Part shown: positions 37,641 through 64,000 of the stretch, one piece after another
Position numbering within the stretch: the first letter of the stretch is position 1
Layout of the letters: each line of letters starts with the position of its first letter
NCBI RefSeq assembly: GCF_001273845.1
Contig: NZ_JHBW01000064.1
Span: forward strand, 62,001 to 126,000
Direction of reading: 5' to 3'
From: Leucobacter musarum subsp. musarum
GTDB lineage: Bacteria; Actinomycetota; Actinomycetes; Actinomycetales; Microbacteriaceae
DNA length: 64,000 nucleotides
Position numbers and translations under genes: made by a program
The notes under the pieces: generated by a model
What the model was told of the DNA's origin: nothing
Databases searched by the model: none
The model's input: the letters and a program-made list of their open reading frames with translations, nothing else

Positions 37641-37671
37641 CAATGTCGGCGCCCAGGAGTAGTCTGCTCGG

Positions 37672-43377: not shown

Positions 43378-43972
43378 TGTCGATGCGGCCACCTTTACCC
43401 TGTGGAGGCGTGATGAGCATCTGGATCGCCGGACCGTAATATCGCACGATCTGTGTGAGGGGCAATGCCTGCTCCTCAGCGAGCACCCACCACGACAGTT
43501 CGAGCCCGAGCAGTTGCGCGCCGATGAGTTCGGCTCTCAAATGGGTGTCCGAGCCGGCCAACCGAAGGGCAAGAGGGCCCACAATGTGGGTATTCATCGA
43601 ATCGAGAAGGTACTCGCGCACTGCTGTCTGGCCGAGTGCTCCCATCACCGCGACCAGCTCGGACCGCGGGGCTACACCGTTGACGCCGTACAAGCGGTCA
43701 AGCATCGCGGCACCGAGCGTTGCGAGAGGGCCCGAAGTGAGCGACTCATAGCGATCGGTGACCTGTAGCGTTTCGAGAAAGAGCGCGGTCTTTGAGCCGA
43801 AGTTGCGGGACACGAGAGCGGGATCCACGCCGGCTTCCGTCGCCACGTCGCGCATGCTCGTCGCGTCAAATCCTCGCTCGAGAAAGAGACGTGCTGCTGC
43901 TGAGCGAATGAGATCGCGACTTCGACTCGAACGTGGGCGACCGCGCGGGCGCCGGGCGGGAGGAGTCGTCAC
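43352..43972 (-). CDS. TetR/AcrR family transcriptional regulator
   Basis: A 206-residue regulator. After an Arg/Pro-rich tail (ARRPRGRPRSSRSRD) comes the helix-turn-helix LIRSAAARLFLERGFDATSMRDVATEAGVDPALVSRNFGSKTAL. The C-terminal half resembles the TetR_C domain of actinobacterial efflux regulators. It starts with GTG and is divergent from an MMPL transporter gene, which it probably represses through the palindrome at 44058-44073. Confidence 0.87.
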   Translation of the reverse strand: MTTPPARRPRGRPRSSRSRDLIRSAAARLFLERGFDATSMRDVATEAGVDPALVSRNFGSKTALFLETLQVTDRYESLTSGPLATLGAAMLDRLYGVNGVAPRSELVAVMGALGQTAVREYLLDSMNTHIVGPLALRLAGSDTHLRAELIGAQLLGLELSWWVLAEEQALPLTQIVRYYGPAIQMLITPPQGKGGRIDRFTSPPMT

Positions 43973-49260: not shown

Positions 49261-51066
49261 ATGACTGGTCATGCAATTGTTTCGACCCGGCGCGTAAACG
49301 AGTTCAGAGTCGCCGATCGAGCCCGAGACTCAATTCTCGAGGCCTTGGATGCGGAGATTACGGGCGTGCGCCCGATGATCGCCCGCTCGTGGTACCGCAG
49401 CCGAGCTGCGGGCGTGGACGGCTCGGCCGATCGAGGCATGGTCGATGCCGGTCGAGTCGATGAGTACACGCTCAGCGCCGCAGAACCGCACCTCCGCAAG
49501 CTTGATGAGGTCGCGTCCGACCTCGGCGGCTACGTGAGCTTGACGGCGCCGAACGGTGCGCTCATTCACCCCAGTTTCTTGCGGGCGGATGACAGTTTTC
49601 CCGAGGGATACTCGCTGCTTGAAGAGAGCTGCGGCAGCAACGGCGAGGGGCTCGCGCTCGAAGAAGGTCGCGGCGTCTGGCTCGCGCCCGAAGAACACTT
49701 CCGGGAAGACATGCGGGGCAACTGGTGCTTCGGTTCGCTCGTCCGCGACCCGTTCCACAACCGTGTGCGTGCAGTGGTCGGTTTAACGTTCCCCGAAGCG
49801 AGAGTGTCGCACATTGATCCCGCGTCGACCCTGCTCATGCTCGAGGGAGTATCGTCGCGCATCGAGCACGATATCGCCACGCGCACGTCGTCGAAAGAGC
49901 GGGCCCTGCTTGACGAGTACCTCACGGTGACTCGGCGCAGGGGAGACACCCCTATCATCGCCATGGACGGCAAGAACTCGCTCATGAACGCGGCGGCAAC
50001 CTCCCGCCTCCAAGACAACGATCTCGCCATCATCGAGGGCTATGCAAAGTCGGTGATGTCATCGGGTCGCTCAAGTACCGCGACGGTGTCGCTCAGCGGG
50101 GTCGGCTCGGCTGAGCTGACACTGACGGCGGTGCAGCTCTCAGGGGCGAGCGTTGGCGCGATCGTCACGGTGAGGCCGCGCGCGGAACAACGTACGCTGC
50201 GCCGGGCGGCGAGCACAGCCCCCGCGACGACCTCCGAGCCGACCACGCAAACTTTCGCTCTCACTCAGCTGCGCCAGCGACTCGTCGGTGCGAGCGAGGA
50301 GTTTGAAACGACGCTTGCCCTGGCCGCCCGCGCCATCGAGCAATCTCGGTCAGCAGTCATCATTGGCGAAGCGGGCACGGGGAAGCGGCGGCTCGCCGGT
50401 GCGATTGCAGCGCTGCGCGGCAGCAGCGTCTTCGTCGATGCGCGCCATCGCAACAGTTCGCTGTCGCTCACCGAGGAAGTGGCCCAGTCACTTGGCGCAC
50501 ATCCCGACACGCTGGTGATCGGCCACGCCGACGAACTCAGTCAGCTCGACGGCATCGAGCTCGTGCGCACCATCGGGGCGCACCCGACGGCAAAGGTGAT
50601 CTTGACCGCGCATCGCGCGACACCGACCACTCTCCGCATCTCTGAGTTCTGCGGTGCCCTTGAACTCGAAGTGGCGCCGCTGCGCAACCGGCGGGAAGAC
50701 ATCCCGTTGCTCGCGCAAGCCATTGCCGCCGATCTCGGAGATAAGTCGCTCTCTCGGAAGATGCTTTCGGCGCTCATGAACTCTGACTGGGAACGCAACG
50801 TTGAGCAGTTGCGATCGGTCGTGATCAATGCGGTCGAACGCGCACGGGGCGGCGAGGCGACAATGGATGACCTGCCGATCTCGTTCCAGCGCGTTGCGTC
50901 GACCGGGCGTTTGTCACGTCTTGAAGAGGCCGAGTACAGCGAGCTTCGCAGTGCATTGCGCGAGGCACAGGGAAATCGTCGTCTGGCGGCATCGATGCTG
51001 CAGATCGGCCGCTCGACGCTCTATCGGCGCATGGACTTTTTCCGCAGTCGGGGGCTCGATCTCTAA
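49261..51066 (+). CDS. AcoR-like Fis-family transcriptional activator, lacking the sigma-54 motif
   Basis: A 601-residue regulator of the AcoR/NtrC-like family. The N-terminal part (~residues 50-200) is a GAF-like sensor (LTAPNGALIHPSFLRADD; GSNGEGLALEEGRGVWLAPEEHFREDM). The AAA+ region has Walker A GEAGTGKR near residue 369, but Walker B is degenerate (VIGHADEL) and the GAFTGA loop needed for sigma-54 contact is absent. The C-terminal Fis-type helix-turn-helix is AQGNRRLAASMLQIGRSTLYRRM. AGGAGG precedes the ATG at 49261. It probably activates the adjacent catabolic operon with the housekeeping sigma factor (inference). Confidence 0.85.
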   Translation: MTGHAIVSTRRVNEFRVADRARDSILEALDAEITGVRPMIARSWYRSRAAGVDGSADRGMVDAGRVDEYTLSAAEPHLRKLDEVASDLGGYVSLTAPNGALIHPSFLRADDSFPEGYSLLEESCGSNGEGLALEEGRGVWLAPEEHFREDMRGNWCFGSLVRDPFHNRVRAVVGLTFPEARVSHIDPASTLLMLEGVSSRIEHDIATRTSSKERALLDEYLTVTRRRGDTPIIAMDGKNSLMNAAATSRLQDNDLAIIEGYAKSVMSSGRSSTATVSLSGVGSAELTLTAVQLSGASVGAIVTVRPRAEQRTLRRAASTAPATTSEPTTQTFALTQLRQRLVGASEEFETTLALAARAIEQSRSAVIIGEAGTGKRRLAGAIAALRGSSVFVDARHRNSSLSLTEEVAQSLGAHPDTLVIGHADELSQLDGIELVRTIGAHPTAKVILTAHRATPTTLRISEFCGALELEVAPLRNRREDIPLLAQAIAADLGDKSLSRKMLSALMNSDWERNVEQLRSVVINAVERARGGEATMDDLPISFQRVASTGRLSRLEEAEYSELRSALREAQGNRRLAASMLQIGRSTLYRRMDFFRSRGLDL

Positions 51067-51103
51067 CTCGATTCACACCCGCCGCTGACGCGGCACGATA
51101 CCC

Positions 51104-51155
51104 AGGCGTACTGCTGAGACCGTGCAATCCACGGTCTCAGCAGTACGCCTTTTTT
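51104..51155 (+). terminator. strong rho-independent terminator
   Basis: A perfect 21-bp stem (51104-51124 with 51130-51150) and a CAATC loop are followed at once by five T. It ends the activator gene and separates it from the catabolic operon, so that operon must have its own promoter. Confidence 0.92.
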
Positions 51156-51288
51156 CGGCGTCTTCCCGTGTACCGATCTGGGACGTTTCGCGCTCGCTTG
51201 CGGGCGGTGGAATGGTCACACCCCGCGAACGGAACTCGATTTCGACTGCGGACCTCAACCGTCACAGACGAGAACAGGATTGCTGCAC

Positions 51289-52236
51289 ATGAACCGCGAA
51301 GGACAGGGGACCATCCTGGTCGCTCCCCACCACTTCCCCGATCTCGACCGCGAGCACGCGCTCGCGAAGGAGCTCAACTACGAGCTCGTCGCCGCAAGCG
51401 ATGTCGATGAGTTCCGTGAGGGCCTCGCCGGGGCTGAGATCGTGATGATTACGCCCTACGCCAAGTTGACGGCGAGCGACTTCCCGACCATGCAGCAGTG
51501 CAAGGCAGTGATTCGCTACGGGATCGGGTATGACAACATCGACGTCGATGCGGCGTCCGCAGCGAACATCCCGGTCTCAATCGTGCCGGGCACCGCATCT
51601 GAAGAAGTCGCATCGCACGCGTTCTCAATGGGTCTCGCACTCGCGCGTCGCCTCCCCGCGGGCGATGCCGCGATTCGCGATTTCGCCTGGGGCGGCATCA
51701 TCGGTTACGACACCCCGGTGCTCTCGCAGCTGGAGGTGGGCGTCGTCGGTCTTGGGCGCATCGGTGCCCACGTCGCGCGAATGTACACCGCAGTCGGTGC
51801 GCAGGTGCGCGCCTACGACCCCTTCGTGTCCGAGAGCGAGTTCGCGCTCGCCGAGCTCGACGACATTCTCGAGAACTCGGATGTGGTGTCGCTGCACCTG
51901 CCGTTGACCGATGACACCTGGAACCTCATCTCGGGCGAGGTTCTCGGACGAATGCGCCGCGGCGCAGTCGTCGTCAATGTATCTCGCGGGGGGCTCGTCG
52001 ACGAGGCGGCTCTGGCTGAAGCACTGATCAGCGGCCATATCGCCGGCGCCGGCATCGACACCTTCGCGCAGGAGCCGCTCGACGCCGAGCACCCGTTGCG
52101 CAACGCGCCCAACACCATTCTGACGCCGCATATCGCCTGGCGTTCGAATCGCTCAACGGGTGCGCTGCAGGAGGGTGCCGTCGACCGCGTTCGCCGTGCG
52201 CTCACCGGGCAGCCGCTGATCGACCTTGTGAACTGA
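51289..52236 (+). CDS. NAD-dependent 2-hydroxyacid dehydrogenase, CtBP-like
   Basis: A 315-residue D-isomer-specific 2-hydroxyacid dehydrogenase close to the C-terminal-binding-protein group. The NAD motif is VGVVGLGRIGAHVARM (GxGxxG), and the catalytic stretch ends VNVSRGGLVDEAALAEAL...ILTPHIAW with the active His. RYGIGYDNIDVDAA and GTASEEVASHAFSMGLALAR are family hallmarks. The ATG at 51289 has AGGA upstream. It is the first gene of an operon running to HyuB with gaps of 1-51 nt, so it likely reduces or oxidises an oxoacid intermediate of that pathway. Confidence 0.88.
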   Translation: MNREGQGTILVAPHHFPDLDREHALAKELNYELVAASDVDEFREGLAGAEIVMITPYAKLTASDFPTMQQCKAVIRYGIGYDNIDVDAASAANIPVSIVPGTASEEVASHAFSMGLALARRLPAGDAAIRDFAWGGIIGYDTPVLSQLEVGVVGLGRIGAHVARMYTAVGAQVRAYDPFVSESEFALAELDDILENSDVVSLHLPLTDDTWNLISGEVLGRMRRGAVVVNVSRGGLVDEAALAEALISGHIAGAGIDTFAQEPLDAEHPLRNAPNTILTPHIAWRSNRSTGALQEGAVDRVRRALTGQPLIDLVN

Positions 52237-52254
52237 GAATCGGGAGACAACGAC

Positions 52255-53535
52255 GTGAATACCAATACCGCCACTGAGCGCATCAAGCACGAAGTGCTCG
52301 CCGAAGATCCCCACCTGCGTCGCGGCCCGCGCGGTTTTCCGCTGCTGCCCGGCGGCTATGGGCGCTCGACCTACTTCACGGGGGAGCCCAGCCCGTACGC
52401 GATTCGCGGCGTCGGCTTCCGGGTGTGGGACGACCGAGGGCGCGAGCTCATCGACGCCAACAACAACTTCACCTCGCTGATCCACGGCAATGCGCACCCG
52501 GAGATCACCGAAGCCGCCACGAAGGCGCTTTCGGCCGGTTCAAGCTGGGGCATTCCGAACCTCTGGGAGTGGGAGCTCGCCGAGCTGCTGCTGAAGCGCT
52601 TGCCGTCGCTCGACCAGGTGCGTTTCACCAACTCGGGCACCGAGGCTGTGATGTCGGCGTTGCGAATCGCGCGTGCCGCGACCGGTCGCGACAAGGTCAT
52701 TGTGACCAAGGGTGGCTACCACGGGACATCGGACGTCGCGTTGGTGCCCGGCGGGCCGTCGTACACGAAGGGTGTGCCTCAGGGCGTCATCGACGATGTG
52801 ACCGCGGTGCCGTTGAATGACATCGAGTTTCTGACGCAGGCGGTCGAGTCGGCGCCGCAGGCGTACGCGGCGATCATTCTCGATCTACTGCCGAACCGCG
52901 CCGGCCTGCTCAGCATCACCGAGGAGTTCGTTCGAGCTGCACGCGATCTCGCAACAAAGCACGGCATCGTGCTCATCATCGATGAGACCATCAGCCTGCG
53001 TCTCGGCTACAGCGGCCTGAGCGGCGAGTACGGCGTCGAGCCCGATCTGCTCACGACCGGCAAGCTCATCGGCGGAGGATTCCCCGTGGGTGCTGTGGCC
53101 GGGCTCGGCGCACTCATGGCTGAGGTCGATCCGACGCGCGCCGGCAACCTGCCGCACGGCGGCACGTTCTCGGGCAACCCCGTCAGTATGGCCGCGGGCG
53201 CAGCAGCAGTGCGCCTCTACACCGCGGGGCAGGTGCAGCGACTCAACCGTCTCGGTGATGCAGTGCGCACCGCTGTGGGCGAGCGCATCGCAGACTCCGG
53301 CTGGGAGGTGCGCGGCCGCGGCTCGTTGCTCCGCGCAGTGCCGGCCGGCGCCGAGAAAGTCGCCGAAGACGTGCAGCACCGTCTCTGGTGGGCGACCTAC
53401 GAGCGAGGACTGCTCGGGTCGCCGGCGAACCTCCTCTCATTGTCGACGGAAATGGACGAGAACGTCGGCGCGGATATCGTCGACCGACTCGCCGATGCCG
53501 TCAATTCCGTAGCCGCCGGCACCGACCGCGCCTGA
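52255..53535 (+). CDS. class-III aminotransferase (glutamate-1-semialdehyde aminomutase-like)
   Basis: A 426-residue PLP enzyme of the aminotransferase class-III fold, nearest in pattern to glutamate-1-semialdehyde aminomutases. RFTNSGTEAVMSALRIARAATGRDKVIVTKGGYHGTSD is the cofactor-phosphate region, LIIDETISLRLGYSG holds the PLP-pyridine Asp, and TTGKLIGGGFPVGAVAG holds the Schiff-base Lys. Its place in a catabolic operon argues for an amine-to-oxo step, not tetrapyrrole synthesis (inference). The start is GTG with GGGAGA upstream. Confidence 0.88.
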   Translation: MNTNTATERIKHEVLAEDPHLRRGPRGFPLLPGGYGRSTYFTGEPSPYAIRGVGFRVWDDRGRELIDANNNFTSLIHGNAHPEITEAATKALSAGSSWGIPNLWEWELAELLLKRLPSLDQVRFTNSGTEAVMSALRIARAATGRDKVIVTKGGYHGTSDVALVPGGPSYTKGVPQGVIDDVTAVPLNDIEFLTQAVESAPQAYAAIILDLLPNRAGLLSITEEFVRAARDLATKHGIVLIIDETISLRLGYSGLSGEYGVEPDLLTTGKLIGGGFPVGAVAGLGALMAEVDPTRAGNLPHGGTFSGNPVSMAAGAAAVRLYTAGQVQRLNRLGDAVRTAVGERIADSGWEVRGRGSLLRAVPAGAEKVAEDVQHRLWWATYERGLLGSPANLLSLSTEMDENVGADIVDRLADAVNSVAAGTDRA

Positions 53536-53554
53536 CTCGAAAGCAGCGACAGCG

Positions 53555-54448
53555 ATGAAACTCGTTTCGTACAACCACCCCTACGGCACCCGCGGCGGCG
53601 TGCAGATCGGCGATGCCGTCTACGACCTGGAACGGCTGCTCGCGGATGCTGATGCCGCTGACCGCGGGGCCCCGAGCTCGGTCAAGGAGTTCCTGGCGCT
53701 CTACGGTGATCGCCTGGCCGAACTCGGCGAGGTTTTCGACAGCGCCAGTGACAACGCGATCGGGGCGCTGGTCGGCCCGGTCACTGACGCCGGGCTGGTC
53801 GGCCCCGTGCCTGATCCGGCGAAGGTGTTGTGCGTGGGCCTGAACTACAAGGATCACGTCGCAGAGACCGGCCGTGCCCTCCCTGAGTTCCCCGACGTGT
53901 TCACGAAGTTCGCGTCGACGCTCATCGGTCCGTTCGACGAGATCGGCGGTGCCGAGGTCAGCGAGAACCTCGACTTCGAGGGCGAGGTGGCCGTGGTCAT
54001 CGGCCGACGCGCATCGAAGGTCAGCGAAGCCGAAGCGCTCGACTATGTTGCGGGCCTCGCGCCTCTGAACGACGTCACCGCGCGCGACTTGCAGTACCGC
54101 GGCACCCAGTGGACTGCGGGCAAAGCGGTCGACGGTTCGACGCCGTGGGGCCCCGCGCTCGTCACGCTCGACGAGGTCGGCGACCCGCAAACCCTCGATC
54201 TCGTCACCCGAGTCAACGATGTGGAGATGCAGCGCTCGAACACACGGCATCAGATCTTCCCGATCGCCACGATCATCGCCTACCTCTCCAACTTCCTGAC
54301 CCTTGAACCCGGCGACGTGATCGCCACCGGTACCCCGCAGGGCATCGGGGCGAAGCGCACCCCACCGGTGTGGATCGCTCCAGGCGACACCGTCGAGATC
54401 GAGATCGAGCGCGTGGGCACGCTGCGCAACCAAGTCGCTTCGATCTGA
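53555..54448 (+). CDS. fumarylacetoacetate hydrolase family protein
   Basis: A 297-residue FAH-family protein. The motif VLCVGLNYKDHVAETG, metal-binding FEGEVAVVIGR with ENLDF upstream, NDVTARDLQY and GDVIATGTPQGIGAKRTPPVW match the FAH/HpcE/2-hydroxyhepta-dienedioate isomerase superfamily. These enzymes cleave or isomerise C-C bonds of beta-diketo acids using Mg or Mn. It lies 19 nt after the aminotransferase gene. Confidence 0.88.
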   Translation: MKLVSYNHPYGTRGGVQIGDAVYDLERLLADADAADRGAPSSVKEFLALYGDRLAELGEVFDSASDNAIGALVGPVTDAGLVGPVPDPAKVLCVGLNYKDHVAETGRALPEFPDVFTKFASTLIGPFDEIGGAEVSENLDFEGEVAVVIGRRASKVSEAEALDYVAGLAPLNDVTARDLQYRGTQWTAGKAVDGSTPWGPALVTLDEVGDPQTLDLVTRVNDVEMQRSNTRHQIFPIATIIAYLSNFLTLEPGDVIATGTPQGIGAKRTPPVWIAPGDTVEIEIERVGTLRNQVASI

Positions 54449-54499
54449 TCTGCACCACGATCACACTTCACCCCGCACTATTCACGAAAGACACACATC

Positions 54500-56581
54500 A
54501 TGAGTCAAGATCTCACGGGCGCCGACGAGGCGCGGTACCGCATCGCAGTCGATACGGGCGGCACGTTCACCGACGTCGTCGTCGGCTCCAGCACCGGGGG
54601 CATGGCCGTCGGTAAGGCCCTCACCACCTACGACCGCGTCTTCACCGGATTCGAGGCGTCGGTGCGCCGCGCCGCCGAATCGGTCGGTTGGGACGGCGAC
54701 GCGGTGCTGCGCAACGCGGATGTCATCGTCTACGGTACGACGCACGCCACGAACGCCGTGCTCACCGGCAAGGTCGCGAAGACCGCGCTGCTGACGACCA
54801 CGGGGTTCGCCGACACCCTGCTGCTCCGCGAGGGCGGCCGTCGTGAAGCCTTCGACTCGAAGGCCGCGTACCCGCCAGCGTACATTCCGCGCAACCAGAC
54901 CTTCGAGATCACGGAGCGTCTCTCGGCCGAGGGCGAGGTGCTCGTACCCCTGGATGAGGAGCGCACTCGTGAGGTGCTGCGCGGGCTCGCCACAGATGGC
55001 ACCGAAGCGATTGCGGTCGGGTTCCTCTGGTCGATCATCAACGATGCGCACGAGCGCCGCGTCGGCGAACTGATCGAGGAAGAACTGCCCGGCATTCCTT
55101 ACACGCTCTCGAACGAGGCGAACCCCACGATTCGTGAGTACCGGCGCACCTCGGCGGCGGCGATCGATGCTTCCCTGAAGCCATTGATGGCGGATCACCT
55201 CGGCAATCTGCGGGCAGACCTCGTCGAGTATGGATTTACTGGCGACCTGCTCGTCGTCACTTCGGAGGGTGCGGTGCTCGACGTCGCCGACGTACTGAAC
55301 CGACCCGTGCTCCTGCTCAACTCGGGCCCCTCGATGGCCCCGCTCGTCGGCGCAGCAGCCGCGCCCGACCGCGACACGGTCGTGGTCTGCGATATGGGCG
55401 GCACCACCTTCGACGTGTCGCTCGTCGAGAACGGCATCGTGCGTCACACCCGCGAGGCATGGCTCGGCGAGCCATTCGTCGGGCACCTGACCGGTCTTTC
55501 TTCCGTCGCAGTGACGAGCATCGGCGCCGGCGGCGGCAGCATCGCTTGGATCGACGGCGGCGGCCTGCTGCGCGTCGGTCCCCAGAGCGCGCGCAGCACG
55601 CCCGGCCCGGCCGCATACGGCCGCGGGGGCGAGGAGCCGACGGTGACCGACGCGTGCGTCGCTCTCGGATACCTCGACGCGCAGGGCTTCGAAGGCGGCT
55701 TCACACTCGACCGCGATGCCGCGACGCGTGCCATCGACAGCCGCATCTCGGGACCGCTCGGACGCGACACGCTGCAGTCGGCTCAGGCGATCCTTGACGT
55801 ATCTGCGAACCACATGGCGACTGCGATCCGTCAGTCCTCGCTTGAGCAGGGCGTCGACCCCCGCGGCGCTCTCATCGTCGCCGGCGGAGGTGCGGGCGCT
55901 ATGGTCGCAGCTGCGATCGGTGCGCTGCTCGAAGCCGACACCGTGTTGATTCCTGCAACGGCGGGCGTGCTTGCTGCATACGGTGCGCATCGCGCACCCA
56001 TCGCGACCGAGTTCCTCTCGCCGCTGCACAACGACACCCGCGCGTTCAACGTGAGTTCAGCGGCCACGGCGCTGCGCGACCTCTCGGGCAAGGCTGCGGT
56101 CTTCGCCGAGCGATTCAGCGGCACCGACGCGGTGATTTCCTACTTCGTCGATGCTCGGTACCCGGGCCAGGCGTGGGATCTCCGCGTGATCCTCGACGAA
56201 TCGCCATCACCTGAGTCGGCAGCCGAGATCGTCGAGCAGGCATTCCACGTCGAGCACGATCGTCGCAACGGCACCCATGATCCGGACAGCCGCGTTGAGA
56301 TCATCACCTGGGGCGTACGCGTTGAGATTCCGCGACCCGAGCTCGTCGCTCTTGCCGGGTCGAACGACTCGACGCCTGAAGTGCATCGCACTGACGACAT
56401 TGTGTTCGGTGGCAAGCCTTTCGCGACGGCGCGTTACCGCGGCGTCACTCTGAGCCCCGGCGATCGCATCGCCGGCCCTGCGGTCATCGACCAGCCGACG
56501 ACCACCATCGTGGTTCCGCCGGAGTGGGACGCTCAGCTCGACGACCGATCCAACATCTACCTCACCCGCAAGGAGGCGTGA
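54500..56581 (+). CDS. hyuA: hydantoinase/oxoprolinase A subunit (HyuA-like)
   Basis: A 693-residue ATP-dependent subunit of the hydantoinase A/5-oxoprolinase family. The nucleotide-binding motifs are IAVDTGGTFTDVVVGS at the N-terminus and VVCDMGGTTFDVSLVENG near residue 296, as in ASKHA ATPases. TTHATNAVLTGKVAKTALLTT is the family linker. The family opens lactams, hydantoins or 5-oxoproline, or carboxylates ketones, with ATP. HyuB follows after 1 nt. Confidence 0.9.
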   Translation: MSQDLTGADEARYRIAVDTGGTFTDVVVGSSTGGMAVGKALTTYDRVFTGFEASVRRAAESVGWDGDAVLRNADVIVYGTTHATNAVLTGKVAKTALLTTTGFADTLLLREGGRREAFDSKAAYPPAYIPRNQTFEITERLSAEGEVLVPLDEERTREVLRGLATDGTEAIAVGFLWSIINDAHERRVGELIEEELPGIPYTLSNEANPTIREYRRTSAAAIDASLKPLMADHLGNLRADLVEYGFTGDLLVVTSEGAVLDVADVLNRPVLLLNSGPSMAPLVGAAAAPDRDTVVVCDMGGTTFDVSLVENGIVRHTREAWLGEPFVGHLTGLSSVAVTSIGAGGGSIAWIDGGGLLRVGPQSARSTPGPAAYGRGGEEPTVTDACVALGYLDAQGFEGGFTLDRDAATRAIDSRISGPLGRDTLQSAQAILDVSANHMATAIRQSSLEQGVDPRGALIVAGGGAGAMVAAAIGALLEADTVLIPATAGVLAAYGAHRAPIATEFLSPLHNDTRAFNVSSAATALRDLSGKAAVFAERFSGTDAVISYFVDARYPGQAWDLRVILDESPSPESAAEIVEQAFHVEHDRRNGTHDPDSRVEIITWGVRVEIPRPELVALAGSNDSTPEVHRTDDIVFGGKPFATARYRGVTLSPGDRIAGPAVIDQPTTTIVVPPEWDAQLDDRSNIYLTRKEA

Positions 56582-56582
56582 C

Positions 56583-58346
56583 ATGACACGCGAATTCGAC
56601 CCGGTGAAGCTCTCCGTCCTCGCCAACGCTTTCGACGGCATCGTCCGCGAAATGACGAGTGGACTGCTTCGCTCCGCACGCTCATCGGTGATCAACACGG
56701 CGCGCGACTTCTCGTGCGCGGTGCTCACCGCAGACAACCAACTGCTTGCCGCAGCGGAGGGCGTGCCGGTGCACGTGTTCGGTGCCGGCCCGTTGGGCGA
56801 AGACATGGTGGAGCTCCACGACGACATTCGTGAGGGCGATGCATTCCTGCACAACGACCCCTACCGCGGCAACTCCCACGCGGCCGACCACTGCATCCTG
56901 GTGCCGATTTTCATCGAGGGTCGCCATCTGTTCACCGCAGTGACGAAGGCGCACCAGGCCGACTGCGGCGACTCGCTGCCGACGACCTTCTTCGCGACCG
57001 CTCGCGATGTCTATGAAGAGGGCGCGCTCATTTTCCCGTGCGTCCGGGTGCAGCGTGACTACACGGATATTGACGACATCGTGCGTATGTGCCGTGCGCG
57101 TATCCGCGTGCCCGATCAGTGGTACGGCGACTACCTCGCCTCGGTCGGTGCATCGCGTATCGCCGAGCGTCGCATCCAGGAACTCGCTGAGAAGTTCGGT
57201 GCCGATGATCTCGTCGACTTCGTCGACGCGTGGTTCAACTACTCGGAGCGCCTTGCCCAGTCCACGATCGAGACGCTGCCTGCGGTAGAGCTTCACGGAT
57301 CCACCGCTCACGATCCCTTCCCGGGTACCGGCCCCGACGGGGTGCCGCTGCAGGCGACCATCGCGGTGCGCCCGGAGGAAGGGCGCATTTCGATCGATCT
57401 GCGCGACAACCCCGACAACCTCCCGAACGGTCTCAACCTCACCCGCGCGACGGCGACGGGCGCGGCGCTCGCGGGTATTCTCTCGGGCCTGCCCGAGAAC
57501 CTGCCGAGCAACGCCGGAACGTTCCGACGCATCGAGGTGCAGCTGCGCGACGGCTGCGTCGTCGGGGTGCCGAAGCATCCGTTCTCGTGCTCATCGGGAA
57601 CGACCAACCTCGCCGACCGCGTTGTTAACCTCGTGCAGGCGGCGTTCGCGCAGATCGACGATGGCTACGGTGCCGCCGAGGGAGCTGCCGGACAGGCTCC
57701 TGCGAAGTCGGTGATCTCGGGCATCGATGAGCGCAACGGGAACGCGTACGTGAACCAGATTCTCGTCGGCGGCGTCGGCGGCCCGGCGACCCCGTTCGTC
57801 GACGGGTGGCCCACCTACCAGCGCCCGGTGTGCGGTGCCCTGCTGTACCACGACAGCGTCGAAGTCGATGAGCAGCGCTACCCGATCCTGGTGCACGAGC
57901 GCACGCTCGTCGCCGATACCGGCGGCGCTGGGCGCCAGCGCGGCGGCCTCGCAACGCGCGTCGTGATGGAGGCCCGTGATGAGGAGGTGACGCTCACCTA
58001 TGGCATCGAGGGCAAGCTGAACCCGCCCCAGGGCGTGCGTGGCGGTCACGGCGGCACTGAGCCAGAGGCATGGGTCATTGATGCTGCCTCGGGGGAGCGC
58101 AAGGAGATCCCGATCGTCGGTCGCTACGACCTGCGTCGCGGGGAAAAGGTCGTCTCGATCACCCCGGGCGGTGGCGGATACGGTGACCCGCTGGAGCGCG
58201 AGCCCGAGGCCGTGCTGACCGACGTCGAGGATCTGCGTGTGACCCTCGAGACGGCGCGTGACATCTACGGTGTGGTTATCGCAGGAGGCGCCATTGACGC
58301 AGAGGCGACGACTGCTCAGCGACGCGATCTTCTTGCGGCTCGCTAA
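56583..58346 (+). CDS. hyuB: hydantoinase/oxoprolinase B subunit (HyuB-like)
   Basis: A 587-residue partner subunit. The N-terminus, KLSVLANAFDGIVREMTSGLLRSARSSV, the GDAFLHNDPYRGNSHAADH segment and the C-terminal GGGGYGDPLEREPEAV tail are family signatures. With HyuA it forms the cyclic-amide hydrolase or carboxylase. The substrate is unknown; the neighbouring aminotransferase and dehydrogenases argue for a ring-opened amino acid as product (inference). Confidence 0.9.
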   Translation: MTREFDPVKLSVLANAFDGIVREMTSGLLRSARSSVINTARDFSCAVLTADNQLLAAAEGVPVHVFGAGPLGEDMVELHDDIREGDAFLHNDPYRGNSHAADHCILVPIFIEGRHLFTAVTKAHQADCGDSLPTTFFATARDVYEEGALIFPCVRVQRDYTDIDDIVRMCRARIRVPDQWYGDYLASVGASRIAERRIQELAEKFGADDLVDFVDAWFNYSERLAQSTIETLPAVELHGSTAHDPFPGTGPDGVPLQATIAVRPEEGRISIDLRDNPDNLPNGLNLTRATATGAALAGILSGLPENLPSNAGTFRRIEVQLRDGCVVGVPKHPFSCSSGTTNLADRVVNLVQAAFAQIDDGYGAAEGAAGQAPAKSVISGIDERNGNAYVNQILVGGVGGPATPFVDGWPTYQRPVCGALLYHDSVEVDEQRYPILVHERTLVADTGGAGRQRGGLATRVVMEARDEEVTLTYGIEGKLNPPQGVRGGHGGTEPEAWVIDAASGERKEIPIVGRYDLRRGEKVVSITPGGGGYGDPLEREPEAVLTDVEDLRVTLETARDIYGVVIAGGAIDAEATTAQRRDLLAAR

Positions 58347-58350
58347 GCGA

Positions 58351-58369
58351 GTGTCTCACAATGGGACAC
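58351..58369. promoter_or_regulatory. inverted repeat GTGTC-n9-GACAC
   Basis: GTGTCTCACAATGGGACAC lies 4 nt past the hyuB stop and ~160 nt upstream of the Gfo/Idh gene. Seven of eight position pairs outside the 3-bp centre are complementary. A related site is at 63838-63856. Confidence 0.55.
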
Positions 58370-58405
58370 GTTCCACCTCGCTCATTCTGAGAATGTAGAA
58401 ACACT

Positions 58406-58436
58406 GAACGGGCGAACCGCTACGGTTCGCCCGTTC
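58406..58436 (+). terminator. terminator-like hairpin after hyuB
   Basis: A perfect 13-bp stem (58406-58418 with 58424-58436) and a GCTAC loop are followed by GTTTCTC. It may end the hyu operon or, if transcription starts at the palindrome upstream, act as a leader structure for the next gene. Confidence 0.65.
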
Positions 58437-58527
58437 GTTTCTCAGGGCGGTGATCAGTGCGCCGTCCGCCCCCGAAGCCGCCGCGAACGCGCGGCTCATC
58501 GAGAAATGTGATTGACGGAGAAGAATC

Positions 58528-59670
58528 ATGGAACCCATTCGAGTCGGCATCATCGGCGTCGGAAACGTTCTGAACCAGTACCTCGACAAGATCGGCGTGC
58601 ATCCCGACGTAGACATCGTGGCGCTGGCCGACGTGAACGAGGCGGCAGTTACCGCGCGCGCTGAGGAGTACGGCGTGCGCAAGGCGCTGAGCCCCGACGA
58701 GTTGCTCGCGGATCCCGAGATTGAGCTCGTGCTCAACCTCACCCCGCCGAAGCTCCACGCGCCGGTCAGCCTACAGGCGATTGCAGCGGGCAAGCACGTA
58801 CTGTCGGAGAAGCCCTTTGCCACCTCGCTCGAAGAGGCGCAGCAGATCCTCGACGCCGCGAAAGCGGCCGGTGTCTACGCCGGTTCCGCTCCCACCACTT
58901 TCCTGGGTTCGGGAGCGCAGACCAGCCGCAAGTTGATCGATGACGGGTGGATCGGTGAGCCGGTCGCCGCATTCGGCTCGTTCGTGAACCGCGGCTACGA
59001 GCACTGGCATCCCAACGTGGATCCCTTCTACAGCCCGGGTGCCGGCCCGATGCTCGACATCGGGCCCTACCTGATCACCAATCTCGTCAACATCTTCGGA
59101 CCGGTGCGCCGTGTGTCGGCCTCGGCGGCGAAGTCTTCTGAGACCCGACCCCGCCCTGACGGATCCGGCGGGTACGAGGGGGAGATCCCGATTCAGACGC
59201 CGACGCACATCTCAGGGTCGATCGACTTCGAGTCGGGCGCCGTGGCGACGGTCGTCGTGAGCTGGGACGTATGGAACCACAATCTTCCGCACTTCGAGAT
59301 CTACGGCACCGCCGGTTCGATCGCTGCTCCGAATCCTGATCACTTCGATGGAGCCCCCGTGCTGCGTCGGGGCGAGCCGCGCGACCTGGCGCTCGATATG
59401 ACGCCTCCGGGTGGTGGCGATTGGCGTGAGACCGCCCTGACGCACCGTGATGACGCATATCGCGGGATCGGCCTCGCCGAGTTTGGCCACGCGATTCGGG
59501 CCGGCATCGAGCCGCGCACGGGTGGAGCCTTCGCGTATCACGTGCTCGAGGTGCTGCTCGCCTTTGAGCAGTCGTCGCAGGAGGGTCGCCACATTGACAT
59601 CGCGAGCACTTGCGAGCGACCGAGGCCGCTGCCGTCGGTCGGCCCGCATGAGCCGTATCGATTCGATTAA
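58528..59670 (+). CDS. Gfo/Idh/MocA family oxidoreductase
   Basis: A 380-residue NAD(P)-dependent oxidoreductase. The Rossmann motif is VGIIGVGNVLNQYLDKI with VALADVN after it, and EKPFATSLEEAQQIL holds the catalytic Lys of the EKP motif. The C-terminal alpha/beta domain (GPMLDIGPYLITNLVNIFGPV) follows. The family acts on sugars, inositols and related polyols, and sometimes on imines. The ATG has GGAGAAG upstream. Confidence 0.88.
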   Translation: MEPIRVGIIGVGNVLNQYLDKIGVHPDVDIVALADVNEAAVTARAEEYGVRKALSPDELLADPEIELVLNLTPPKLHAPVSLQAIAAGKHVLSEKPFATSLEEAQQILDAAKAAGVYAGSAPTTFLGSGAQTSRKLIDDGWIGEPVAAFGSFVNRGYEHWHPNVDPFYSPGAGPMLDIGPYLITNLVNIFGPVRRVSASAAKSSETRPRPDGSGGYEGEIPIQTPTHISGSIDFESGAVATVVVSWDVWNHNLPHFEIYGTAGSIAAPNPDHFDGAPVLRRGEPRDLALDMTPPGGGDWRETALTHRDDAYRGIGLAEFGHAIRAGIEPRTGGAFAYHVLEVLLAFEQSSQEGRHIDIASTCERPRPLPSVGPHEPYRFD

Positions 59671-59675
59671 TACCC

Positions 59676-59713
59676 GACCAGAACGCCCCGGCACCGACCG
59701 GGGCGTTCTGGTC
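59676..59713 (+). terminator. terminator-like hairpin after Gfo/Idh gene
   Basis: A perfect 16-bp stem (59676-59691 with 59698-59713) and a CACCGA loop begin 6 nt past the stop. It is followed by TCTC, not a T-run. It separates the oxidoreductase gene from the PucR-type regulator. Confidence 0.75.
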
Positions 59714-59735
59714 TCTCAAGGATGAGAGCACCGAG

Positions 59736-61253
59736 ATGCCCCAGCAGATGACCCAGACCCGCGTGGCACGCGGGCAGCTCACCGTCGCCGAACTGGTCGC
59801 CATGCCGCATCTCGGCCTCGAACTCGCCGCGGGGGCAGCAGGCCTCGAACGGCGGGTGCAGTGGACCCATACCTCTGAGCTCGAAGACCCCGGTCCATGG
59901 CTCGAGGGTGGCGAACTGCTCATCGTCAACGGCTTCGGGATCCCGGAGGACGGCCCGGGCCAGACGGAATACGTGCGGCGTCTTGCCCAGCATAGGCTCG
60001 CCGGCGTCGCTGTCAGCGTGCGCGCACCGGAGCTCACTCCCGAGATGCTCGCGGTCGCCGACGAACTCGGCTTCCCCGTGATGAAGATTCCTCGCCAGGT
60101 GCCGTTCATCGAACTGTCGTACCTGGTGGCCAATGCGAGCGAGCGGTCGGCGCGGGATCGCCTGGCCAGGCACCTCCGCATCTTCGAGACGCTCCGATTG
60201 CGCAACGCGATCGACAGCGACGTACCGGGTATCTACCGCCAGTTGGAGCAGATCTCCGGGTACCGCCTGGCACTGATCTCGCCCTCGGGTCAGGCGCTGC
60301 TCGAAGACTGGGCATGGGTGCCGGATGTTGACTGGGGAGACGCACTCCAAGCGACCGACTTGCGGGTGGTGCCGGGCGGGTATCTCGTTCCGCTGTTCGT
60401 GGGCGACCGGGTGACCGCGTATCTAGTGGGCATCGAGCACGACGAGGTGTCACCCGAGGGCCTCGCGGCCCTGCAGCACGTGAGTACCCTGGCTGCGCTC
60501 GATGCCATTGAGGATCAGCGCAGGCGAGAAGCCGAGCACCGCAAGGGCGGTTCGGCGCTGTTGCGGGCCATGGAACCAGGTGCGCCCCATGCCGAAGTTG
60601 AACGACGACTGCAAGATGCCGGGCTGGTACGCGACACGCCTTTCCGCGTCGTTGCATTCGGCCGTATCGCTCACGCGCTGCCCGAGACTCGCGCGCGGGA
60701 TTGGCTTGCGGATCGCCGGATCCCACATGCCATCCTGTGGCAGGAGCAGCTCATCGGAATGCTCCAGTGCAGCGACGAGCAGCTTTCCGAACTCGGATCC
60801 GCACTGGGTGTTTCCATCGGAGCCAGTCCGACAAGTGCAACCGTGTCAGAGATTCCGCGATTGCTGAGACAGGCTCGGTGGTCGTTGAGCCTCGCTGTCG
60901 AGATCGACGCTCCGGAAGTCATTTTTACCGAGCGCCAACTCGGTCTTGCACGCTGGCTGAATCCTGATGCGCGCACCATGGAGCGACTTGCCGAGGACAC
61001 GCTGCGCCCCGTGCTCGAACACGATGTTGCACAGGGATCGGAACTCTTTCATACGCTCGCGGTGTACTTCCGGCAGCACGGGCGCATGCGCGCGACTGCG
61101 GGGGCACTCTTCGTACACGAGCACACGCTGCGGTACCGACTGAATCGCATCGAGCAATTGACCGGCAAGAGTCTGAAGAACATGCGCGAGTCATTCGAGC
61201 TGTGGCTCGCGGTCGAGGCCCACGCCCTCGTCGCTCGCGACGACGACGAATAG
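59736..61253 (+). CDS. PucR family transcriptional regulator
   Basis: A 505-residue regulator. The N-terminal PucR domain (TVAELVAMPHLGLELAAGAAGLERRVQWTHTSELEDPGPWLEGGELL) senses small molecules. The C-terminal helix-turn-helix of the CdaR/PucR type (HTH_30) is HGRMRATAGALFVHEHTLRYRLNRIEQLTG. PucR proteins regulate purine or nitrogen-compound catabolism in many bacteria. Here it lies between the Hyu/Gfo genes and a transporter, so it is a second candidate regulator of the region. Confidence 0.88.
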   Translation: MPQQMTQTRVARGQLTVAELVAMPHLGLELAAGAAGLERRVQWTHTSELEDPGPWLEGGELLIVNGFGIPEDGPGQTEYVRRLAQHRLAGVAVSVRAPELTPEMLAVADELGFPVMKIPRQVPFIELSYLVANASERSARDRLARHLRIFETLRLRNAIDSDVPGIYRQLEQISGYRLALISPSGQALLEDWAWVPDVDWGDALQATDLRVVPGGYLVPLFVGDRVTAYLVGIEHDEVSPEGLAALQHVSTLAALDAIEDQRRREAEHRKGGSALLRAMEPGAPHAEVERRLQDAGLVRDTPFRVVAFGRIAHALPETRARDWLADRRIPHAILWQEQLIGMLQCSDEQLSELGSALGVSIGASPTSATVSEIPRLLRQARWSLSLAVEIDAPEVIFTERQLGLARWLNPDARTMERLAEDTLRPVLEHDVAQGSELFHTLAVYFRQHGRMRATAGALFVHEHTLRYRLNRIEQLTGKSLKNMRESFELWLAVEAHALVARDDDE

Positions 61254-61301
61254 CATGCGGCGTCCCCTGCGCGTTCTGTGATGCGCAGGGGACGCCGCAT
61301 G
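61254..61301. terminator. bidirectional terminator hairpin
   Basis: A perfect 19-bp stem (61254-61272 with 61283-61301) and a 10-nt loop lie between the convergent PucR and MFS genes, starting 1 nt after the PucR stop and ending 2 nt before the end of the MFS gene. Confidence 0.85.
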
Positions 61302-61302
61302 A

Positions 61303-62622
61303 TCAGTTCTGCAGTGCGCCGTGCGCGGTCTCGCGCGACAGTATGACGCCCGTGATGCCGATGACCGAGGCGGCGACGCCGAGCCAGAGCACGCTGAGCC
61401 AGGTGCCGGTGGCACTGAGGAGTGCGAACGAGATCAGCGGGGTGAGCCCGGCGAAGGCGGAAGCGCCCTGGAACCCGATCGACATCCCTGTGTAGCGCAC
61501 CTTCGCAGGAAAGAGCTCGGCGAGGTAGGCGGAGAGCGGACCATAGGTCGCGCCGACGAAGAACAACTGGCCGCCAACCGCGAGCACGATCGTGCCGAGC
61601 CCGGAACTCGGTGTGAGCAGGGTAAAGTACACGGGAAGCCAGAGCAGGCAGCCAATGAATCCAATCGCCAGCACGGGCTTCCGGCCGAAGCGGTCGGAGA
61701 TTGCCGCCCAGGTCAACGACACCACGATGTAGAGCACCTGCGCGATCGTGATAGACCAGAGCACCATGCTGGCGTTGAGCCCGAGATGCGTGGTGGCGTA
61801 GGGAGTCACAAATACGAGCGAGAGCTGGTAGTAGACGAGCGAGAGGCAAATGGCGATGCCGCAGAAGACTGCACGTCCATGCTGCGCGAAGAGTTCGGTG
61901 ATCGGCAGTCGTTCTCGCTTGGCGGGTTGAGCTCGGCGCGCTGCCTGCATCTCAAGAAAGGCGGGAGTGTCGGCGATCTTCGTGCGGATGTAGGCTCCCA
62001 CGATCAGGAGGACTGCGCTGACTAGGAACGGAATGCGCCAGCCCCAGGCCTCAAATTGCGCTGGAGTGAGCGTGCCGAGCAGAATCGCGAGCAGCGCCGA
62101 CGACATGAGGAACCCGAACGAGGCACCCACGTTCGCGATCGTCGACAGGAAGGCGCGGTGTCGCGTCTCTGCCGCGTGTTCGATGATGAGCGTCGCAGCA
62201 CCGGCGAACTCGCCGCCGACGGCAATGCCCTGCACGAGGCGCAGCAACACGAGCATCGCAGTCGCCCACCCGCCGAGTACGGCGAACGTGGGGAGCAATC
62301 CGAGCAGCACGGTGCTGCCACCCATCAACCAGACCGTGACGACCAGCATGCGCTTGCGTCCGATGCGATCTCCGAAGTGGCCGAAGATGATGCCGCCCAC
62401 GGGCCGCGCGAAGTAACCGACGGCGAGGGTGCTGAACCCAAGCAGCACCTCTGAGACGGGGTCGCCCGGCTCAAAGAAGAGTCTGCCGAGAATGAGACCT
62501 GATAAGGAGGCGAAGATGAAGAAATCGAACCACTCGAGCACCGCGCCGACGGTGCTCGAAGCGACGACTCTGGCCAACGAGGTGCGTGCGGTGGCCGGGG
62601 GAGCAGAAGTTGCAGTGTGCAT
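61303..62622 (-). CDS. MHS-type MFS transporter (metabolite:H+ symporter)
   Basis: A 439-residue 12-segment transporter. ASSTVGAVLEWFDFFIFASLSGLI and FARPVGGIIFGHFGDRIGRKRMLVVTVWLMG are signatures of the metabolite:H+ symporter family (shikimate/ProP/alpha-ketoglutarate carriers), followed by RLVQGIAVGGEFAGAATLI. It likely imports the organic acid or amide degraded by the neighbouring enzymes (inference). The ATG at 62622 was chosen where the family N-terminus begins; the frame is open to 62793. Confidence 0.9.
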   Translation of the reverse strand: MHTATSAPPATARTSLARVVASSTVGAVLEWFDFFIFASLSGLILGRLFFEPGDPVSEVLLGFSTLAVGYFARPVGGIIFGHFGDRIGRKRMLVVTVWLMGGSTVLLGLLPTFAVLGGWATAMLVLLRLVQGIAVGGEFAGAATLIIEHAAETRHRAFLSTIANVGASFGFLMSSALLAILLGTLTPAQFEAWGWRIPFLVSAVLLIVGAYIRTKIADTPAFLEMQAARRAQPAKRERLPITELFAQHGRAVFCGIAICLSLVYYQLSLVFVTPYATTHLGLNASMVLWSITIAQVLYIVVSLTWAAISDRFGRKPVLAIGFIGCLLWLPVYFTLLTPSSGLGTIVLAVGGQLFFVGATYGPLSAYLAELFPAKVRYTGMSIGFQGASAFAGLTPLISFALLSATGTWLSVLWLGVAASVIGITGVILSRETAHGALQN

Positions 62623-62897
62623 GGGTACCTGTGATTCGTCGTTGAATGAGCGCTCGGATCGCGAGCTGTGCAGCTGAGTGCTCGGCCGACAGTAACAGCG
62701 CTCCGCGACGGGATTCATTGGACAAACGTATGAACCCCTTTCGGGGGTGTTGGGCAGAAGTGACAACCGCAACGGCGGCCTCACAAACCGCATCTGCGGA
62801 TGAGTAGCATCGAGCTCTGCCGTGCTCCGTCACGGTGCCCGCGGTGCGCGATTGAGTGATCCTGCACCACTTCACACCTCGAGATCTGGAGCCCGAG

Positions 62898-63827
62898 ATG
62901 CCCGAATCACAGCCACTGGTGGTGAGTTTGCCAGACGCAGAGTTGCGCCAGCGGATCAGGAGTTTTCCTGAGGTTCGCTACGTGGAGTGGAATTTCTCGA
63001 CGCCACCACCCGAGACCCATATTGACGTCGTGGTGCTGCCGTATCTCTCGTCGATGCGACCGATCCACGCCCTCACGCAGGTGTCGAGCCGTCTGGTGCA
63101 GAGCCCGGCACTCGGCTTCGACGGTATCGCGGACTTGCTGCCGGCAGGCGTGACCTTCGCAAATGGTGTCGGGGTGCACGAGACGGCTACGGCCGAACTC
63201 GCGCTCACCCACGTGCTCATGGCGCAGCGAGAGATGCACCGGATGTTCCGGGATCAACTGCGTGGCCACTGGGAAACCGAAGACCGATTCGTGCCAGGTC
63301 TCGCCGACCGCGAGGTATTCGTCGTGGGATACGGCGGGGTCGGTCGCGAAATCGTGCGCAGACTCGAACCGTTCGGGCCTCGGCTTTCGGTGTTCACTTC
63401 ACGTCGATACATCGCCGACGATGGCCGACGGGTGGGTTCGGGCTCCGACCTCCTCGAGGCATTACCGACCGCTGATGTGGTCGTGCTCGCGGTGCCCCTG
63501 AATCAGCGCACGCTCGGAATGGTGGATCGTGATTTTCTTGCGCGCATGTGCGACGATGCGCTGCTGGTGAATGTCTCACGCGGGCCCGTTGCCGTGACCG
63601 CCGACCTCGTCGGTGAGATCGGCCGACTCCGATTCGCACTCGACGTGACGGATCCCGAACCGCTGCCGGCAAACCACCCGCTCTGGAGCGCGCCGGGGGT
63701 GGCGATCACTCCGCACGCTGCGGCCGGCAGTCGTGCCATGGGGCCGCGGATGGTCGCCCTCGTCGAATCGCAGGTCTCGCGCCTGCGCGCCGGAGAGGAG
63801 CCGCTGCACGTCGTGATTCGCACGTAG
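62898..63827 (+). CDS. NAD-dependent 2-hydroxyacid dehydrogenase (second copy)
   Basis: A 309-residue D-2-hydroxyacid dehydrogenase, only distantly related to the one at 51289. The NAD motif is VFVVGYGGVGREIVRRL, and the catalytic part is LLVNVSRGPVAVTADL with ITPHAAAGS holding the active His. GGAG lies 7 nt upstream of the ATG. It is divergent from the MHS transporter across a 275-bp intergenic region with a small hairpin near 62732-62750 (AACCCC/GGGGGTGTT). Confidence 0.87.
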   Translation: MPESQPLVVSLPDAELRQRIRSFPEVRYVEWNFSTPPPETHIDVVVLPYLSSMRPIHALTQVSSRLVQSPALGFDGIADLLPAGVTFANGVGVHETATAELALTHVLMAQREMHRMFRDQLRGHWETEDRFVPGLADREVFVVGYGGVGREIVRRLEPFGPRLSVFTSRRYIADDGRRVGSGSDLLEALPTADVVVLAVPLNQRTLGMVDRDFLARMCDDALLVNVSRGPVAVTADLVGEIGRLRFALDVTDPEPLPANHPLWSAPGVAITPHAAAGSRAMGPRMVALVESQVSRLRAGEEPLHVVIRT

Positions 63828-63837
63828 TCATCGGGCC

Positions 63838-63856
63838 AGTGTCAAAGTGGGACACT
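63838..63856. promoter_or_regulatory. inverted repeat GTGTC-n7-GACAC
   Basis: AGTGTC (63838-63843) and GACACT (63851-63856) flank a 7-nt centre, ~83 nt upstream of the last gene start. It resembles the site at 58351-58369 except for spacer length; both read GGGACAC followed shortly by TTCC. Confidence 0.5.
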
Positions 63857-63938: not shown

Positions 63939-64000
63939 ATGAGCAGCACGGCCGCTGCCGTTGCAGGTATTGGTGACCCGAAGGCGCCCGTGCGGCGTCG
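63939..64000 (+). CDS. partial gene start, product unknown
   Basis: An ATG at 63939 with GAGGAG 7 nt upstream opens a frame that runs off the window end after about 20 residues (MSSTAAAVAGIGDPKAPVRR). This is too short to identify. The position after the 2-hydroxyacid dehydrogenase and the palindrome at 63838-63856 suggest it belongs to the same cluster. Confidence 0.5.
   Translation, partial: MSSTAAAVAGIGDPKAPVRR

Follow-up and report, generated by a model that had tools for sequence, protein, structure and literature searches.

Among described systems, one of the closest to the gene set considered here is the caprolactam pathway of Pseudomonas jessenii, in which, according to excerpts of the published account, caprolactamase acts first, an aminotransferase and an aldehyde dehydrogenase (ALDH) follow, and all are encoded in one cluster (PMC6061476). 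Myo-inositol (iol) catabolism, 5-oxoprolinase and N-methylhydantoinase, and a cluster on the rhizobial plasmid pRM41A offer further points of comparison. The locus considered here lies in a 64,000-nt stretch (contig positions 62001–126000, hereafter the window) of the 3.4 Mb genome of Leucobacter musarum subsp. musarum, and contains an apparently catabolic island that includes the paired genes for HyuA and HyuB. An earlier note on this DNA had grouped HyuAB with an aminotransferase, an FAH-family hydrolase, two 2-hydroxyacid dehydrogenases, an MHS importer, a Gfo/Idh oxidoreductase, a PucR regulator, and an AcoR-like activator. Pfam and NCBIfam profile searches, by which gene families were assigned, find all ten of these genes at or near the positions first proposed for them and confirm their families. 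This combination of genes was not found described in the literature searched, which comprised openly licensed papers only.

We regard the island, with a confidence just short of even, as a mobile catabolic unit for a polyhydroxylated cyclic amine of the nortropane or aminocyclitol type, probably controlled by its AcoR-like protein. Judged from sequence comparison, the catabolic cassette at its center is conserved and apparently co-regulated.

Gene order, enzymes, and distribution of the cassette

The cassette opens with a run of plus-strand genes encoding a D-isomer 2-hydroxyacid dehydrogenase of the CtBP/PGDH type (DH1; 51289..52236, 2-Hacid_dh), a class III aminotransferase of the GSAM-like group (AT3; 52255..53535, Aminotran_3, best NCBIfam model GSAM/HemL), an FAH-family hydrolase (FAH; 53555..54448, FAA_hydrolase), HyuA (54500..56581, Hydantoinase_A), and HyuB (56583..58346, Hydantoinase_B), the last two being the proposed ATP-binding and metal-binding subunits of an ATP-dependent lactamase. 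The intergenic gaps measure 18 bp (DH1–AT3), 19 bp (AT3–FAH), 51 bp (FAH–HyuA), and 1 bp (HyuA–HyuB). Next comes a Gfo/Idh/MocA oxidoreductase (Gfo; 58528..59670, plus strand, GFO_IDH_MocA), and the conserved unit then passes the window end, continuing from 63939 with an IolD-like thiamine pyrophosphate (TPP) enzyme of 648 aa and an ALDH; only the start of the former lies within the window (63939..64000, plus strand), the gene running on beyond it (L037 5940–7886).

DH1, AT3, FAH, HyuA, HyuB, Gfo, IolD, and ALDH occur in one order and on one strand in all 20 of the other loci compared, and the neighborhood is therefore not due to chance. These loci—15 from named genomes, one on an Arthrobacter plasmid, and one each in G036, G100, G272, and G516—were chosen as close HyuA relatives, after which the window proteins were mapped onto each; they come from at most 19 genomes (Arthrobacter sp. 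S39 contributes two) in five actinobacterial families plus the G-numbered genomes, and the counts leave out G569, taken as a repeat of a Brevibacterium record, and L061, taken as a repeat of L030. The earlier note had asked whether the genes are scattered in relatives; the core is not, and its idea of a coherent catabolic unit holds, with different boundaries. Gfo (20/20 loci), IolD, and ALDH belong to the unit, whereas the MHS-family importer (MHS-type MFS; 61303..62793, minus strand) and the second 2-hydroxyacid dehydrogenase (DH2; 62856..63827, plus strand, 2-Hacid_dh), which it had counted as members, were found in none of the 20 loci within the stretches examined. The PucR-family regulator (59736..61253, plus strand, PucR) is an optional member, present in 8 of 20 loci; in L017 and L018 it is directly followed by IolD. 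DH3, another 2-hydroxyacid dehydrogenase that is related yet distinct, comes after ALDH in those two loci and in the genome studied here.

The AcoR-like transcription activator (49261..51066, plus strand; AAA lid and Fis-type HTH_8, longest open frame from 49015) stands immediately 5′ of DH1 in 18 of 20 loci, at 54–85% identity. In Brevibacterium, AcoR and DH1 are separated by a lactone-oxidase-like gene and a GntP permease, and in Mycobacterium the AcoR relative 5′ of DH1 is only 31% identical. Pacificispira (L032), whose HyuA is the sixteenth match at 30% identity, has no cassette. Two peculiarities of Arthrobacter deserve mention: the HyuB of the StoSoilB13 plasmid (L013, 14094–15855) matches over 88% only and lacks its start, being possibly broken or mis-sequenced, and strain S39 carries its two cassette copies (L019, L025) on separate contigs, with unlike genes downstream.

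HyuA and HyuB fall within their Pfam families, with Hydant_A_N, Hydantoinase_A, and Hydantoinase_B all above gathering scores, and the models that fit them best are those of caprolactamase (CapA, 476 bits; CapB, 294.5 bits), at scores below the equivalog cut-offs of 1000 bits each (NF050156, NF050157). Scores against the Apc carboxylase models are lower (HyuA: ApcC 258.7 and ApcA 169.3 bits; HyuB: ApcD 117.2 bits) and lie under equivalog cut-offs of 1250–1500 bits; the pair is thus not tied to known carboxylases, a grouping that the earlier note had raised against its own proposal. Read against the phosphate, metal, and adenosine motif descriptions for caprolactamase in excerpts of PMC8453981, HyuA carries the ATP phosphate motifs DTGGTFTD and DMGGT, and HyuB has a complete Asp-His-Asp-His metal site, with D42, H99, D102, and H124 matching the four CapB ligands. 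The adenosine motif GxxPGP departs from the pattern, reading RSTPGP, with arginine for the first glycine, in the window and in cassettes L013, L029, and L031; it is intact in the 11 non-cassette HyuA relatives compared. Ile368 and Pro408 of the CapB pocket correspond to Lys375 and Arg414 in HyuB, both invariant in the 20 loci, a tentative comparison given that Lys375 lies close to an alignment gap and that other HyuB relatives also depart from CapB there.

The IolD-like enzyme passes the TIGR04377 model (742.9 bits, 742.8 in a second search; cut-off 715), and the 21 cassette IolD proteins form one clade (100/100, stem 1.78) apart from the two other IolD proteins of the genome, with long branches that make its placement unsure. 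Those two genes, also above the TIGR04377 cut-off, are on contig C91 (L074, L075), and relatives of iolB, iolC, and, weakly, iolE adjoin one of them (L074). Around the cassette, no relatives of iolB, iolC, or iolE were found at 1e-8, either in the genome's own DNA across the window and a further 33 kb or so, or in ten cassette loci that were searched; the same search recovered only iolD and iolG relatives. The IolG of the wider island scores 358 bits against a cut-off of 355. Looser assignments apply to the remaining enzymes. ALDH best fits the succinic-semialdehyde dehydrogenase (SSADH) model, below cut-off (441 bits vs. 730); AT3 scores 243.5 bits against HemL TIGR00713, below its cut-off of 527.3, and its nearest PDB entries are the class III aminotransferase 6k8h, ForI, and GSAM enzymes. 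FAH has 2,4-didehydro-3-deoxy-L-rhamnonate hydrolase as its best NCBIfam model (212 bits, below the cut-off of 500) and the FAH-family protein 8sky, HpaG/HpcE-type enzymes, and L-2,4-diketo-3-deoxyrhamnonate hydrolase as its nearest PDB entries.

The window HyuA is 94% identical to those of Leucobacter sp. cx-328 and cx-42. With the genome itself included in each count, HyuA reaches E ≤ 1e-200 in 4 out of 396 genomes sampled from the order and in one out of 396 from the phylum. Across 199 genomes of the family, 12 have a match at E ≤ 1e-100; identity is 79% or more in three of them (its own, G036, and G100) and 35–50% in the remaining nine. AT3 at E ≤ 1e-100 is found in 3 of 199 genomes of the family and 4 of 396 of the order, its relatives being 76–83% identical, and in these two samples, searched with AT3, the genomes with a close AT3 are the genomes with a close HyuA (79–84%). 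Three listed genomes of the same genus have neither AT3 (E ≤ 1e-100) nor a close HyuA. No cassette was found in the genomes with distant HyuA, covered as 20 kb or whole short contigs (L035, L036, L038–L040) or as 5-kb pieces (L009–L012); AT3-like genes of 30% identity adjoin HyuAB in L035 and L038.

This distribution can be set against RpoB, for which the window genome is 71.3%, 74.0%, and 73.7% identical to the out-of-family genomes G272, G516, and G569. DH1, AT3, HyuA, HyuB, and Gfo exceed these values in the same three genomes (76.8–86.1%); the remaining proteins are not above RpoB throughout (FAH 66–72%, ALDH 67–74%, AcoR 51–61%, PucR 54–56%, IolD 73–79%), and within the family RpoB identities (82.1% for G036, 76.6% for G100) lie near the cassette values. 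The IolD tree divides the Leucobacter cassettes: that of wl10 joins Nocardia, Mycobacterium, G036, and G272 (88/97), and the rest group with G100 and Arthrobacter (95/91). Because five enzymes outscore RpoB outside the family, and because of these tree groupings, the comparison suggests that the cassette has moved by horizontal transfer.

Operator-like sites and a putative regulator

Alignment of DH1 upstream regions recovers a conserved element, for which a 19-bp palindromic matrix was built from 24 sites in other loci (consensus GTGTCTCAAATTGAGACAC). The seed sites were picked after inspection of earlier scan matches, and sites in the seed loci are accordingly in-sample; outside the seeds are the genome's own sites at 58351, 63837, 68491, 70409, 72061, 75099, and 83626 and five in L052. 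The site before the DH1 operon (51168..51186, 19.8 bits) equals the L017 matrix seed. Two further sites lie in the HyuB–Gfo gap (58351..58369, 21.6 bits) and before IolD–ALDH (63837..63855, 16.3 bits). The genome's own DNA holds seven sites of at least 12 bits in 77,990 bases, against 0.77 expected from 100 Markov-2 simulations, and five above 16 bits, against 0.06 expected from the same simulations; all seven are intergenic, and none lies 5′ of 51168. Those beyond the window precede an SDR (22.4 bits), an APC permease (12.3 bits), a sugar-type ABC transporter (18.7 bits), comprising ATPase, BPD_transp_2, and Peripla_BP_4 proteins, and an FAD-oxidase/4Fe-4S protein (14.3 bits), the permease and oxidase sites each being insecure singly. 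An eighth site at 83626 (22.8 bits; contig position 145626) falls within the 5′ extension of the longest frame of a further Gfo/Idh gene, close to the start of that gene, which it seems to precede.

One site 5′ of DH1 and one 5′ of IolD occur in all 20 loci, partly by construction, as these loci supplied the matrix; a Gfo-preceding site is present, but not in every locus. Elsewhere, across 488,211 bases from other loci, part of them belonging to the genome itself, scores above 14 bits were reached only in L043 (the genome's own IolD site), once in L050 (14.5 bits), and five times in L052. The last is R. leguminosarum BIHB 1217 pPR1, where a second cluster (30600–43450) encodes an APC permease, a DH1 split into two frames, an AcoR homolog, an SDR, a luciferase-like monooxygenase, FAH (59%), AT3 (61%), a flavin reductase, and an ALDH, with the five operator-like sites around it. 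This operator-bearing cluster contains neither HyuAB nor IolD, and its composition suggests that DH1–AT3–FAH may be a module joined to different front ends.

Because the sites recur five times around the L052 cluster, which has an AcoR homolog (30%), the AcoR-like protein is likely the regulator that controls the island. Of the four rhizobial stretches without an AcoR match, three (L049, L051, and L053) lack sites above 14 bits; L050 has one (14.5 bits), which lies outside its HyuAB cluster. GAFTGA is the motif used as a criterion of sigma-54 interaction. Since this motif was not seen by eye in the AcoR-like translation, and the sigma-54 interaction domain match is below the Pfam cut-off, the protein may work without sigma-54.

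A candidate pathway and its alternatives

From the observed gene content, order, and co-occurrence, the operator-like sites, the HyuAB motifs, and the IolD clade, we infer a set of reactions, their order, a regulator, and a substrate. The earlier note had HyuAB act first. Because there are an IolD-like ring-cleaving enzyme, Gfo/Idh dehydrogenases, and, in this genome, a sugar-type ABC transporter behind the same kind of operator-like site, the data suggest a polyhydroxylated cyclic amine as the starting compound, with the lactam as an intermediate. Such a compound would enter through the sugar-type ABC transporter or an amino-acid permease; a Gfo/Idh-type dehydrogenase would oxidize a ring hydroxyl beside a carbonyl to give a 1,2-dione, and the IolD-like enzyme would hydrolyze the bond between the two carbonyls, leaving an acid, which forms a lactam with the ring amine, and an aldehyde for ALDH to oxidize. 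HyuAB would then open the lactam with ATP, AT3 would convert the gamma-amino group to a ketone, DH1 would oxidize the 2-hydroxyacid to a 2-oxoacid, and FAH would hydrolyze the resulting 2,4-dioxoacid.

The alternative that survives best, although we consider it rather unlikely, is that degradation begins from a lactam or hydantoin, which HyuAB would open before AT3, ALDH, DH1, and FAH act, leaving IolD and Gfo for a sugar part or a second substrate. It accords with the caprolactamase models as the best match of HyuAB, with the SSADH-like ALDH, and with the order of caprolactamase, aminotransferase, and ALDH described in the excerpted account of P. jessenii. It sits less easily with an IolD paralog and Gfo that are kept in the same 20 loci as HyuAB and carry operator-like sites (for Gfo not everywhere), with the operator-like site in front of the genome's own sugar-type ABC transporter, and, tentatively, as other HyuB relatives differ too, with lysine and arginine at the CapB pocket positions.

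Somewhat less probable still is a narrower form of the polyhydroxylated-amine reading, in which the substrate is a six-membered aminocyclitol of the inosamine or streptamine type, not a seven-membered nortropane, and the route an amino counterpart of the inositol pathway. The IolD and IolG family enzymes and the sugar-type ABC transporter with its Peripla_BP_4 binding protein would fit, as would a xylose-isomerase-like TIM-barrel gene in G036 (L033 18976–19895), which stands behind an operator-like site beside a second Gfo/Idh gene and whose product we take to be of the fold group of IolE. Yet the inositol route needs a dehydratase, and IolE as query finds no relative at 1e-8 in ten cassette loci and the genome's own DNA; moreover, on structural reasoning, only an amine at one position would yield a 2,4-dioxoacid for FAH. 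At L019 20073–22087, and at the corresponding position of other Arthrobacter loci, an SDR and then an IlvD/EDD-family dehydratase stand behind the same operator-like site, hinting at a sugar-acid-like intermediate.

We consider it improbable that HyuAB, instead of being a lactamase, belongs with the ATP-dependent carboxylases of acetone or acetophenone: the superfamily is the same and ApcC reaches 258.7 bits, but CapA scores higher at 476 bits, and an aminotransferase in the operon would imply nitrogen chemistry. That the neighbors are unrelated and share no joint function is most improbable, variable as MHS, DH2, and PucR are, given the 20/20 collinearity, the co-occurrence in the same genomes, and the common operator-like sites.

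Within the reading of a polyhydroxylated cyclic amine degraded through a lactam, calystegines are the leading substrate candidate because a diverged version of the gene set lies on pRM41A, which is taken here to be the calystegine plasmid of Sinorhizobium meliloti Rm41, carrying its calystegine genes. Searches by tblastn with DH1 and FAH reached rhizobial plasmids including pRM41A, examined over positions 80001–213900 of 246023, where a cluster encodes a CtBP-type dehydrogenase, a GMC oxidase, a class III aminotransferase, HyuA, HyuB, an NTF2-like protein, a second GMC oxidase, and FAH, with ABC transporters adjoining. The diverged set (identities: CtBP-type dehydrogenase 63%, aminotransferase 37%, HyuA 32%, HyuB 28%, FAH 60%) occurs on five plasmids of rhizobia or related bacteria, pRM41A among them. 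The reference list of PMC6095057 cites Guntli et al. 1999, whose title concerns a plasmid of Rm41 for calystegine catabolism. The link of CALYSTEGINES to the cassette via pRM41A is suggestive only.

In a calystegine, oxidation at C2 would give the 1,2-dione and the IolD paralog would cut C1–C2; C1 would become a carboxyl gamma to the C5 amine, forming a 2-pyrrolidinone, and the C2 aldehyde would pass to ALDH. Once HyuAB had opened the lactam, AT3 would produce the 4-oxo and DH1 the 2-oxo group, and FAH would split 2,4-dioxoheptanedioate into succinate and pyruvate, or hydroxypyruvate from a more hydroxylated compound. Every cassette enzyme would have a role in this route, an extra dehydratase would be unnecessary, and six-membered aminocyclitols would fit less well than the calystegine-type ring. 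The specific proposal—an actinobacterial pathway for calystegine-type nortropanes in which the IolD paralog turns a hemiaminal into a 5-substituted 2-pyrrolidinone, HyuAB opens it, and a succinylpyruvate-type intermediate follows, related or convergent to the pRM41A set—is one we hold as a doubtful possibility. Swainsonine, degraded by Arthrobacter sp. HW08, was considered and rejected: the proteomics names other proteins, and the main text, as excerpted, has no hydantoinase or aminotransferase (PMC4885060, PMC3847719). Opines such as agropinic acid were also weighed as candidates.

Several observations weigh against the favored interpretation or against the operator-like sites. Cruder motif scans that preceded the 19-bp matrix were unconvincing. 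With the plain consensus and up to three mismatches, sites are unenriched (five in the window vs. 3.88 expected; one in L037 vs. 1.26), and the exact match at 51168 is the sole standout in that scan; a matrix from DH1 sites only placed an off-target sequence at 27837 (16.0 bits) second and the IolD site sixth in the genome's own DNA, and a mis-registered palindrome matrix placed an off-target at 40466 first. The L033 TIM-barrel gene behind an operator-like site, together with IolG-type genes downstream of the cassette in several genomes, favors a more inositol-like compound. For the plasmid link, pRM41A also bears other catabolic clusters, and the five rhizobial stretches gave no IolD match (E ≤ 1e-6, coverage >25%), containing GMC/FAD oxidases instead. 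Finally, the L052 cluster carries DH1, AT3, and FAH without HyuAB or IolD, and the core may therefore serve several substrates.

What the analysis offers is a sparse, apparently mobile gene set tied to a testable reaction sequence, and a substrate hypothesis for a HyuAB group so far without an assigned function; it also points to an IolD paralog employed outside inositol metabolism. If the substrates are indeed calystegines or similar glycosidase inhibitors, these would be candidate genes for soil bacteria that consume such plant compounds and, for calystegines, the pRM41A set would be a candidate for the genes behind the trait in S. meliloti Rm41.

Comparison with described systems

The cassette HyuAB shares its protein family and motifs with 5-oxoprolinase and N-methylhydantoinase; however, its best model is caprolactamase, below cut-off, and no hydantoin- or oxoproline-specific gene was recognized in the cassette. 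With myo-inositol catabolism the island shares an IolD-family TPP enzyme above cut-off and, in its wider extent, IolG, but the cassette loci tested are without iolB, iolC, and iolE relatives, the cassette IolD proteins form their own clade, and nitrogen-handling enzymes are present. The caprolactam pathway of P. jessenii (CapAB, omega-aminotransferase, 6-oxohexanoate dehydrogenase) likewise clusters a HyuA/HyuB-type lactamase with an aminotransferase and an SSADH-like ALDH; the cassette differs in that its aminotransferase is GSAM-like, in scores of HyuA and HyuB below the CapA/CapB cut-offs, and in the addition of a 2-hydroxyacid dehydrogenase, FAH, an IolD-like TPP enzyme, and Gfo. The pRM41A-type cluster of S. 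meliloti Rm41, Rhizobium N324, Agrobacterium CFBP7129, R. leguminosarum BIHB 1217, and Ochrobactrum A44 differs in its GMC/FAD oxidases, in regulators of the MurR/RpiR type (by annotation or match), in giving no IolD match within the stretches searched, and in a HyuA only 32–35% identical to that of the cassette, but shares with it the CtBP-type dehydrogenase, the GSAM-like aminotransferase, HyuA, HyuB, and FAH.

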